Below are positions 39,917-43,113 of a DNA stretch of 64,000 nucleotides, in pieces. Position 1 is the stretch's first letter. Each line of letters opens with the position of its first letter. The stretch lies in contig BPGH01000001.1 of NCBI GenBank assembly GCA_026002935.1, positions 1,103,965 to 1,167,964 on the forward strand. The letters are read 5' to 3'. A program made the position numbers and the translations under genes. This DNA comes from Acidimicrobiia bacterium. Its GTDB lineage: Bacteria > Actinomycetota > Acidimicrobiia > IMCC26256 > PALSA-610. Under the pieces are notes generated by a model. That model was not told the DNA's origin. It did not search any database and was given only the letters and a program-made list of their open reading frames with translations.

Positions 39917-40921
39917 ATGAAGCTCGGACTGCAACTCGGCTACTGGGGCGCGCAGCCCAACCCGTTCGCCGTCTCGCTGGCCCAGGAGGCCGAGCGGCTC
40001 GGCTTCGACTCGGTCTGGACGGGAGAGGCGTGGGGCTCCGACGCGTTCACACCGCTCGCGTGGATCGGCGCGCACACCGAGCGCATACGCCTGTGCACCG
40101 GTGTCGTGCAGCTCTCGGCACGCACGCCCGCCGCGACCGCGATGCACGCGCTCACCCTCGACCACCTGAGCGGCGGGCGCTTCACCCTCGGGCTCGGCGT
40201 GAGCGGCCCGCAGGTCGTGGAGGGCTGGTACGGCCAGCCCTTCGGCAAGCCGCTCGCGCGCACCCGCGAGTACGTCGAGATCGTGCGACGGATCCTGCGG
40301 CGGGACGAGCCGGTCGAATTCCACGGCGAGCACTACCGCATGCCCTACGACGGGCCGGGGTCGTGGGGGCTCGGCAAGCCGCTGCGCTCCATCACGCACC
40401 CGTTGCGGGCCGACCTGCCGATCCTGCTCGGTGCGGAGGGCCCGAAGAACGTCGCGCTCGCCGGCGAGATCGCCGACGGCTGGATCCCGCTCTACTACTC
40501 GCCCTTCCGTCCCGACGTGTACGGCTCGCTCGGCGCGACCAAGCCGGGCTTCGAGGTGTGCGTCACCGTGATGGGCTGCTCCATCACCGACGACATCGAG
40601 GCGGGCCTGATGCCGACGAAGGCCGCGCTCGCGTTCTACATCGGGGGCATGGGCGCGAAGAGCCGGAACTTCCACATGGAGCTCATGAGCCGCATGGGCT
40701 TCGAGGGCGCCGCGCAGCGCATCCAGGAGCTGTTCTTCGAGGGCCGGCGCGACGAGGCGATCCCCCTCGTGCCGACCGAGTTCGCCGACGAGATCTCGCT
40801 CGTCGGCCCCAAGGAGCGCATCCGCGACCGGCTGCAGGTCTGGGAGGAGAGCATCGTCACGACCATGATCGTGAACGCCGACGTCGAGACGCTGCGCACG
40901 CTCGCCGAGCTCGCGCTCTGA
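39917..40921 (+). CDS. LLM-class F420-dependent oxidoreductase
   Basis: 334 residues. The opening MKLGLQLGYWGAQPNPFAVS with ERLGFDSVWTGEAWGSDAFT, LSGGRFTLGLGVSGPQVVEG and PILLGAEGPKNVALAGEIAD are the standard blocks of F420/FMN TIM-barrel oxidoreductases, here of the MER/F420-dependent hydroxylase-like subgroup. Substrate unknown. ATG 39917 is chosen as the residue before the conserved KLGLQLGY; an upstream in-frame ATG would add 23 non-conserved residues. It converges with the superoxide dismutase gene, 13 nt apart. Confidence 0.9.
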   Translation: MKLGLQLGYWGAQPNPFAVSLAQEAERLGFDSVWTGEAWGSDAFTPLAWIGAHTERIRLCTGVVQLSARTPAATAMHALTLDHLSGGRFTLGLGVSGPQVVEGWYGQPFGKPLARTREYVEIVRRILRRDEPVEFHGEHYRMPYDGPGSWGLGKPLRSITHPLRADLPILLGAEGPKNVALAGEIADGWIPLYYSPFRPDVYGSLGATKPGFEVCVTVMGCSITDDIEAGLMPTKAALAFYIGGMGAKSRNFHMELMSRMGFEGAAQRIQELFFEGRRDEAIPLVPTEFADEISLVGPKERIRDRLQVWEESIVTTMIVNADVETLRTLAELAL

Positions 40922-40933
40922 GGGCGGCGCGGC

Positions 40934-41557
40934 TCAGCGCGGCTGCTCGACGAGCACCAGCTCCCGGGCGCGGTCGAACCGCCGGGCGACGTCCTCCCAG
41001 TCGACGACGTTCCAGATCGCGTCGACGTACTCGGCGCGGCGGTTCTCGTACTGCAGGTAGTACGCGTGTTCCCACGCGTCGACGACGAGGAGCAGCACGC
41101 CGCTCTGGCCGACGTTGCCCTGGTGGTCGTAGATCTGTTCGACGAACAGGCGCTGGCCGAGCGGCTCCCACGACAGGGCGCCCCAGCCGGATCCCTGCAC
41201 CGTGTTCGCCGCCTCGGAGAGCTGGGCCCGGAAGGCGTCGAAGCTCCCGAAGCCGTCGTCGATGGCGGCGGCGAGCTCACCCTCGGGCCTCCCGCCGCCG
41301 TCGGGCGAGAGGTTCTGCCAGAAGATCGTGTGGAGCACGTGGCCCGACAGGTTGAACGCGAGGGTCTTCTCGAGGCCGACGATCGAGCTGAGGTCCCCGG
41401 CCGCGCGGGCCGCGTCGAGCCGTTCGATCGTCGTGTTCAGGCCCTTCACGTAGGCCGCGTGGTGCTTCCCGTGGTGCAGCTCGAGGACGCGGGCCGAGTA
41501 GTGCGGCTCGAGCGCGCCGTGGTCGTAGGGGAGGTCGGGCAGCTCGTAGGGTCTCAC
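40934..41557 (-). CDS. Superoxide dismutase (Fe/Mn type)
   Basis: 207 residues. Metal ligands H28 (LELHHGKHH), H76 (VLHTIFW), D160 and H164 ([13 protein letters not shown]), all present. [10 protein letters not shown] and NLSPDGGG match Mn/Fe-SODs; the residues before D160 are of the mixed type, so the metal cannot be called (manganese would fit the Mn-sensing riboswitch at 11153). GTG 41557 has AAGGAGCC about 5 nt upstream, a clear ribosome site. Divergent from the FAD oxidase gene across a 185-nt region with notable repeats. Confidence 0.95.
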
Positions 41558-41630
41558 GGCGGCTCCTTCGTGCCGGGGACGGGCACGTCGTGCAACCGCG
41601 CGCCGGTCCGGTTCGTTCCCTACCCCGCGC

Positions 41631-41658
41631 CGCGTGACCCGACCCGCGTGACCCGACC
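41631..41658. repeat. 14-bp perfect tandem repeat
   Basis: CGCGTGACCCGACC occurs twice head to tail (41631-41644, 41645-41658) in the region between divergent superoxide dismutase and FAD-oxidase genes, directly followed by the long inverted repeat. Confidence 0.6.
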
Positions 41659-41669
41659 CCCGTGGGCCG

Positions 41670-41706
41670 AGCACCCGCGGGCCCGGACGCCGGGCCCGCG
41701 GGTGCT
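41670..41706. repeat. Perfect 17-bp inverted repeat
   Basis: AGCACCCGCGGGCCCGG, loop ACG, then its exact complement ending at 41706. The flanking genes diverge, so a terminator role is unlikely. Its last base is the first T of the -35 hexamer TTGACC of the FAD-oxidase promoter, which would place the hairpin directly upstream of polymerase. Possibly an operator or a cruciform. Confidence 0.7.
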
Positions 41707-41735
41707 TGACCGGCTCCGGCGCCGGCGCCTACACA
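41706..41735 (+). promoter_or_regulatory. Promoter of the FAD oxidase gene
   Basis: TTGACC (41706-41711), 18 nt, TACACA (41730-41735). Transcription would begin at about 41742-41743, coinciding with the GTG start: a leaderless mRNA. Confidence 0.5.
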
Positions 41736-41742
41736 CGGCGCG

Positions 41743-43113
41743 GTGAGCGACCTCGTCGAACGCCTCTCCGCCGCCGTCGGGCCCGGGAACGTGCTGGTGG
41801 GGGACGCGATCCCCGAGGAGGTCACCCACGACGAGGCGCTCACGGCCGCCCCCGTCGTGCCGCTCGCGCTGGTGCGGCCGGCGGCCACGGCCGAGGTCGC
41901 GGCCGTGCTGCGCGTCGCGGACGAGCTGCGGGTGCCGGTGACCGCCCGCGGATCCGGGACGGGCCTGTCGGGCGGCTGCGTCCCCCGCCCCGACGGCATC
42001 GTCGTCGCGTTCGACCGCATGGACCGGATCCTCGAGATCGACACCGACAACCACGTCGCCGTCGTCCAGCCGGGGGTCACCCTCGACCGGCTCGACGAGG
42101 CCCTCCGGCCGCTCGGGCTCGTCTACCCGGTCGCGCCCGGCGAGAACAGCGCCTCGCTCGGCGGGAACGTCGCGACGAACGCGGGCGGGATGCGGGCCAT
42201 CAAGTACGGCGTGACCCGCCACCAGGTGCTCGGGATCGAGGCCGTCCTGCCGACCGGCGAGGTCGTCCGCTGCGGCGGCAAGTTCGTGAAGGCGACCACC
42301 GGGTACGACCTCACCCAGCTCGTCATCGGCTCCGAGGGGACGCTCGCCCTGGTCACCGAGGCGACGCTGCGCGTCTACCCGCGGCCCGCGCACACCGCGA
42401 CCGCGCTCGTCCCGTTCGCGTCGCTCGAGGAGGTCACCGCCGCCGTCCCGGCGATCGTGCGCAGCGGCGTCGGGCCGCTCGTGCTCGAGTACGTCGACGG
42501 CGGGGGTCTCGCGCTGCTCGCGGCGAACGTGGGGCTCGAGCTCGGCGTCGACGCGAAGGTGCAGGAGGCGGCGGCCGCCTACCTCGTCGTCGTCCTCGAG
42601 GGGCACCACGAGGCGCGGGTGGAGGAGGACCTCGCGGCCCTCTCCGAGCTCGTCGGTGCGCTCGGCGCGCTCGACGTGTACGTGCTCCCGCCGCACTCGT
42701 CCGCGTTGCTGCTCGAGGCGCGCGAGAAGGCGTTCTGGGTCGTCAAGCAGATGGGGGCGAACGACATCATCGACGTGGTCGTGCCGCGCGCGTCGGTGCC
42801 CGAGTACCTCGCGAAGGTGCGGGCCGTCGGCGAGGAGCACGGCACGTACATCGCGGCGGCCGGTCACGCCGGGGACGGCAACATCCACCTCTCGGTGTTC
42901 CAGCCCGACCCCGAGGTGCGCAAGCAGGTGATGCGCGCGGTGCTGCGGGCCGGTGTCGAGATGGGCGGCGCGATCTCCGCCGAGCACGGGATCGGCACCG
43001 AGAAGCGCGGCTACTTCCTCGAGCTCGAGGACCCCGCCAAGCTCGCGCTCATGCGGCGCATCAAGGCCGCGTTCGACCCGAACGGCATCCTCAACCCCGG
43101 TACCCTCCTCTGA
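41743..43113 (+). CDS. FAD-linked oxidase, GlcD-like (2-hydroxyacid oxidase)
   Basis: 456 residues. FAD-binding PCMH fold: PVTARGSGTGLSGGCVPR, PGENSASLGGNVATNAGGMR (covalent/FAD loop region) and YDLTQLVIGSEGTLALVTEA; the C-terminal cap has AAAGHAGDGNIHLS and SAEHGIGTEKRGYF with its histidines. This is the glycolate oxidase GlcD/D-lactate dehydrogenase group, which oxidise 2-hydroxyacids to 2-oxoacids. A ThDP enzyme that could act on 2-oxoacids follows 49 nt downstream. GTG 41743 is the +1 base of a good promoter. Confidence 0.9.
   Translation: MSDLVERLSAAVGPGNVLVGDAIPEEVTHDEALTAAPVVPLALVRPAATAEVAAVLRVADELRVPVTARGSGTGLSGGCVPRPDGIVVAFDRMDRILEIDTDNHVAVVQPGVTLDRLDEALRPLGLVYPVAPGENSASLGGNVATNAGGMRAIKYGVTRHQVLGIEAVLPTGEVVRCGGKFVKATTGYDLTQLVIGSEGTLALVTEATLRVYPRPAHTATALVPFASLEEVTAAVPAIVRSGVGPLVLEYVDGGGLALLAANVGLELGVDAKVQEAAAAYLVVVLEGHHEARVEEDLAALSELVGALGALDVYVLPPHSSALLLEAREKAFWVVKQMGANDIIDVVVPRASVPEYLAKVRAVGEEHGTYIAAAGHAGDGNIHLSVFQPDPEVRKQVMRAVLRAGVEMGGAISAEHGIGTEKRGYFLELEDPAKLALMRRIKAAFDPNGILNPGTLL

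Follow-up and report, generated by a model that had tools for sequence, protein, structure and literature searches.

The window (the whole stretch of 64,000 nucleotides that was analysed) belongs to an Acidimicrobiia metagenome-assembled genome of 3.45 Mb in 4 contigs, 85% complete and 75% GC. Genes were called with a purpose-written codon-usage script, not a standard gene finder. The features treated here, listed in Table 1, center on the 185 bp gap between two divergent genes, sod and fad. Read from left to right, this gap contains the sod Shine-Dalgarno sequence, the hexamer TAGGGA, an array of 14-bp repeats that runs up to a 17-bp stem, the hexamer TTGACC, an 18-bp spacer, the hexamer TACACA, 7 bp, and the GTG start of fad. 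The gene that converges on sod from the left appears, by its sequence type, to be of the luciferase-like monooxygenase type.

Table 1. Coordinates of genes and sequence features around the sod/fad gap, numbered from the first base of the window.
Feature	Position	Strand	Remarks
Luciferase-like monooxygenase-type gene	39917..40921	+	Convergent with sod, 12 bp between stops
sod, Fe/Mn superoxide dismutase	40934..41557	-	207 aa; GTG start 41555-41557
sod Shine-Dalgarno AAGGAG	41563-41568	-	
TAGGGA, possible sod promoter -10	41617..41622	-	Weak candidate from sequence reading; leader ~50 nt
Tandem array, period 14, 2.5 copies	41630..41664	strandless	Found by TRF
Perfect 17-bp inverted repeat	41670..41706	strandless	Arms 41670-41686 / 41690-41706, 17/17 pairs; loop ACG 41687-41689
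fad promoter -35 hexamer TTGACC	41706..41711	+	Identical in G002, G008, G011 and G013
fad promoter -10 hexamer TACACA	41730..41735	+	7 nt 5' of fad start; identical in four g3 species
fad, FAD-linked oxidase	41743..43113	+	456 aa; FAD_binding_4 + FAD-oxidase_C; GTG start at 41743

An earlier note, made from the letters of this DNA, had described a flawless 17-bp stem with a 3-base loop, and all 17 pairs around the loop ACG are indeed there. The same note had the stem abutting TTGACC. The two are adjacent, and the description can be refined: they share a base, the T at 41706 being both the last base of the stem and the first of the hexamer. Extended without gaps, the arms reach 22 nt with 91% complementarity (41665-41711). 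Folded as single-strand DNA, the region 41660-41716 gives -31.2 kcal/mol, compared to -16.3 for shuffled sequences (z -6.85). The lowest 44-nt folds within 40701-41900 start at 41665 (-44.5 kcal/mol) and 41669 (-43.0), and the next separate low fold is at 41261 (-31.7). Intergenic sequence of this genome, 105.7 kb in all, contains 7 stems of at least 12 bp where 0.9 are expected, and two of 17 bp where the expectation for 15 bp or more is 0.0; expected values come from 10 first-order Markov replicas of the same 105.7 kb. The stem is real, rare, and far above chance.

The earlier note had suggested looking for the same repeats elsewhere in the genome, and no second copy of the stem was found. 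Searching the genome with a 201-bp query returned the query itself, its own palindrome, and one weak GC-rich stretch (80%, within a likely coding region), which rules out a repeated element; REP-like and other repeated palindromes are likewise GC-rich and intergenic, but the window stem occurs at a single place. A 14-mer from the arm has 4 exact places in the genome, both arms included, and 46 with at most one mismatch, compared to 21 for the reversed pattern. The tandem unit CGCGTGACCCGACC has 2 exact occurrences genome-wide, both at this locus, and 14 in total with at most one mismatch, against 3 for a reversed control; within the window, with at most two mismatches, its 7 occurrences are at chance level (7.87 expected). 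Matches to arm and repeat are at about the level that a 75% GC genome gives; codon use, or a site, may lie behind the genome-wide excess of CGCGTGACCCGACC. When the intergenic region was searched as DNA against 61 related genomes, this one included, 15 matches came from 11 of the 61, with 3 in this genome itself; those in relatives span just short parts of the query (28-73 bp, 75-93% identity) and are taken for GC-rich chance matches. Nothing in Rfam reached its gathering score, the top hit scoring 20.1 bits where 95 are required (E 0.85-2), which rules out a known structured RNA family.

TTGACC and TACACA together form a leaderless promoter for fad, and both are conserved in the nearest genus, g3, in all 4 of its 4 species (G002, G008, G011 and G013). 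Each of these has TACACA 6 nt before the fad ATG and TTGACC 17 bp before TACACA. Across 453 upstream regions of predicted genes in the window's own genome, the motif TANNNT occurs 90 times at -15 to -12 and twice at -22 to -16, a peak that marks leaderless transcripts. Such transcripts have been mapped in M. tuberculosis; their main -10 motif there is TANNNT, with no -35 consensus found (PMC3898074). The fad hexamer, at -13, fits the position of TANNNT but ends in A; TANNNA at -14 to -12 has 7 occurrences in upstream regions of this genome. A -35 element resembling TTGA or TTGC accompanies just 5 of 85 leaderless promoters here, which sets the fad promoter above most of them. The spacer between the two hexamers (41712-41729 in the window, and its equivalents in L005-L008) contains GC-rich near-palindromes in all five species, for example GGCGCCGGCGCC in the window and GGCGGCCGCC in G008, with GCC always preceding TACACA. 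It represents a candidate operator, better conserved than the stem.

Gene order in the relatives differs at one point. In G002, the luciferase-like gene on the plus strand converges on sod; marR follows on the same strand as sod, and fad, tpp, and voc then run rightward. G008, G013, and G011 agree for those parts that fit on their contigs. A MarR-family gene lies between sod and fad in all four g3 species (Pfam MarR, E 3e-16, one copy tested) and is absent from that position in the window. No marR occurs within 1500 bases of sod in three other genera of the family, nor at the fad loci of other families. The difference may be a loss in this genus or a gain in the sister genus. On the minus strand of G002, the hexamer TAGGAT precedes a marR GTG start by 8 bp and is found immediately upstream of the fad -35 (L007, 1425-1495); the divergent marR and fad promoters would therefore overlap, and marR in this species may also be leaderless. 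In G011, marR and sod overlap by their stop and start (L005, 615-618), suggesting that the regulator and the superoxide dismutase are cotranscribed.

These arrangements bear on the proposal, raised in the earlier note, of an operator. In such a system a dimeric or tetrameric regulator would bind the dyad or the 14-bp repeats beside the -35, blocking or helping RNA polymerase at fad, at sod, or at both. The dyad does sit over the -35 of a divergent gene pair, and the MarR-family gene of the relatives means that local regulation is part of this promoter pair's past. The gap, however, has no adjoining regulator gene; the relatives' marR is missing, and the best matches to it in this genome (85% complete, as noted) are 35% and 31% identical and located elsewhere. 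MarR-type operators in divergent promoters likewise contain a dyad, but here marR is missing where the dyad is present, and the dyad is missing from all four relatives that carry marR. Seventeen perfect pairs around a 3-base center also exceed what an operator needs, and no other site in the genome closely resembles the dyad. We regard the operator reading as possible, not favored, and on balance clearly unlikely.

The search for the stem was extended to the regions upstream of 56 other distinct fad loci, and it was found at 0 of the 56. (This count omits L046, L050, and L053, duplicates of L005, L015, and L017; it includes L014 with just 83 bp of upstream sequence, and L029 and L076 with fad starts extrapolated from partial matches.) A conserved, family-wide operator is thereby ruled out. 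Stems of any sequence with at least 12 bp, within 300 bp upstream, occur at 2 of the 56, both behind a plus-strand gene and both in other orders: in Streptomyces sp. STR69 (L061) the stem is 23 bp after an ORF stop, and in Mycobacterium sp. ENV421 (L069) it follows tRNA-Lys.

An element seen in one species may also be a product of neutral spacer growth, in which the sequence separating the divergent promoters is free to vary and, in this species, slippage produced the 14-bp array and template switching made an inverted copy of the -35 flank, neither with any function. The array adjoins the stem, and the two exact copies of CGCGTGACCCGACC reported in the earlier note are confirmed at 41631-41644 and 41645-41658. 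The 105.7 kb of intergenic sequence holds 9 perfect tandem duplications with periods of 12-16, against 0.0 expected, so that repeats like the 14-bp one are common in this genome. Among the four relatives, neither the length nor the sequence of the stretch just before TTGACC is constant, and only GCTTGACCG beside the -35 is kept; the right arm has an ancestral outer part (..GCT), for whose mirror in the left arm there is no counterpart. Against this account, a GC stem paired at 17 of 17 positions is expected 0.0 times in shuffled-like sequence and should decay when free of selection unless it is very young, and comparable stems in the genome otherwise lie systematically at gene ends. We consider neutral growth somewhat unlikely.

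The hairpin could instead act in the 5' UTR of sod, protecting or attenuating the mRNA, if the sod promoter lay to the right of the stem. A leader exists, because sod has a Shine-Dalgarno sequence, and the minus strand of a 188-nt region folds at -120.6 kcal/mol (z -2.1). The possible -10 TAGGGA, however, is to the left of the stem; to the right, the minus strand has nothing promoter-like except TAGGCG, and a scan found no sigma-70-type site. This role is quite improbable.

Stem-loops were then surveyed in 864 kb of the same genome with 832 predicted genes, made up of the window and 40 spaced stretches of 20 kb; two stems of at least 12 bp at stretch edges were excluded from the count. Seven intergenic stems of at least 12 bp were found. 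Six of the seven are downstream of a stop codon, by 1, 5, 7, 9, 26, and 33 bp, all in tandem gaps, and the seventh is the window stem. None of 19 gene-end stems (at least 10 bp, at most 60 bp from the stop) is followed by a T-run, the next 8 bases holding 0-2 T. Folds of 44 nt below -32 kcal/mol occur after stops in 31 of 243 regions versus 20 of 411 before starts (Fisher p 4e-4), a comparison that is not fully independent, since regions in tandem gaps share sequence. For convergent 3' sides versus divergent 5' sides, the counts of strong folds are 6 of 54 versus 8 of 222 (p 0.036). Among the 222 divergent sides the window stem has the strongest fold, -41.8, the runner-up being -36.2; divergent gaps have six other stems, of 10-11 bp, none with the layout seen in the window. 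In 400 kb of G002, each of the three intergenic stems of at least 11 bp follows the 3' end of a gene, and its 71 divergent pairs contain no such stem. The genome of the window also has two near-identical palindromes with the core GATGTTCCACGTGGAACATC, 70 bp apart (L083:6850-6875 and L083:6920-6945, C1 ~456.9 kb); they resemble the ParB site parS, which would place the replication origin region nearby.

The other 17-bp stem in the surveyed sequence (L084, 357-395) begins 9 bp after a stop codon; 19 bp, including TAGCGT, separate it from the next start. This gene-end stem thus covers the upstream region of a leaderless promoter, and is a precedent for the window stem. Among long intergenic stems of the genome, T-less, GC-only ones are the most frequent. 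The window stem belongs by its build to the gene-end stem-loops, and stands at a site where no same-strand gene ends.

Terminators are the known systems closest in build. According to a 2025 review (PMC12288462), mycobacterial genes have mainly I-shaped terminators, without poly-U and at most 50 bp from the stop codon, while intrinsic terminators are scarce and Rho is dominant. An RNA-seq based analysis of 13 genomes concludes that poly-U can be dispensed with (PMC8355165). The window stem is like the I-shaped terminators in its perfect, GC-only stem, its short loop, and its lack of a T-run. It differs in that it is not within 50 bp of a same-strand stop and lies behind a divergent promoter, and in that termination is a prediction. 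With the canonical (L-shaped) rho-independent terminator it shares a strong stem-loop, but a scan of the locus found no T-run beside the stem on either strand. Going by titles, no literature on stems between divergent promoters was on the point; PMC7154746, by its topic, deals with overlapping transcription from convergent genes.

The earlier note had argued that a terminator makes no sense here, the genes being divergent and a T-run lacking. Its description of the locus is right about the divergent genes, the TTGACC promoter, and the missing T-run. The argument built on it is weak, as stems of the same build follow stop codons by 1-33 bp in six of seven cases, and a T-run is absent from all 19 gene-end stems. 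Copies at convergent gene ends, which the note had treated as the sign of a generic terminator or repeat element, were not found as far as the sequence itself goes, but T-less stems of the same build do sit after stop codons. Furthermore, read-through from the luciferase-like gene is expected to reach the stem before fad, because the 12 bp gap between that gene and sod leaves no room for a hairpin.

We therefore prefer, tentatively, to view the stem as a T-less, GC-only, "I-shaped"-like stem-loop that stops transcription and insulates the leaderless fad promoter. RNA polymerase reading through from the luciferase-like gene would run on the plus strand, antisense over sod. On arrival it would make the hairpin RNA and then stop or release just before the fad promoter; without the stem, this antisense read-through would enter that promoter. 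Being symmetric, the stem would equally halt leftward RNA ahead of the sod start region.

Several observations weigh against insulation. The nearest plus-strand stop (40921) is 748 bp upstream, far from the position kept by gene-end stems; by position the window stem is not a gene-end terminator, and its minus-strand neighbor presents its 5' side. Convergent gaps shorter than 40 bp make up 90 of the 129 in the sample, and most convergent pairs have no hairpin at all, from which it follows that read-through is evidently handled otherwise, probably by Rho. The narrow gap between the luciferase-like gene and sod is common to the four relatives, yet these are stem-free. Our preference for the insulating stem-loop remains tentative because short convergent gaps are mostly without such a device and relatives with the same order lack the stem. 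A further proposal extends it: the stem-loop would have taken over part of the role of marR, which separates and regulates sod and fad in the sister genus and was lost or never gained here. It would separate the divergent promoters by stopping antisense RNA from the convergent neighbor and perhaps by forming, at the -35, an extruded structure that senses supercoiling, so as to couple an oxidase and an oxidative-stress enzyme without a protein regulator. This we hold to be highly improbable.

The element, real but mostly ordinary, is a variant of a common type of stem-loop, present once in one species. If the stem is neutral, it is a caution against taking each dyad at a promoter for an operator. 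If it does stop RNA polymerase, T-less stem-loops would also insulate leaderless promoters in high-GC actinobacteria, serving where the gap between convergent genes is too narrow for a terminator, and such a role would help to annotate transcription units in uncultured bacteria.
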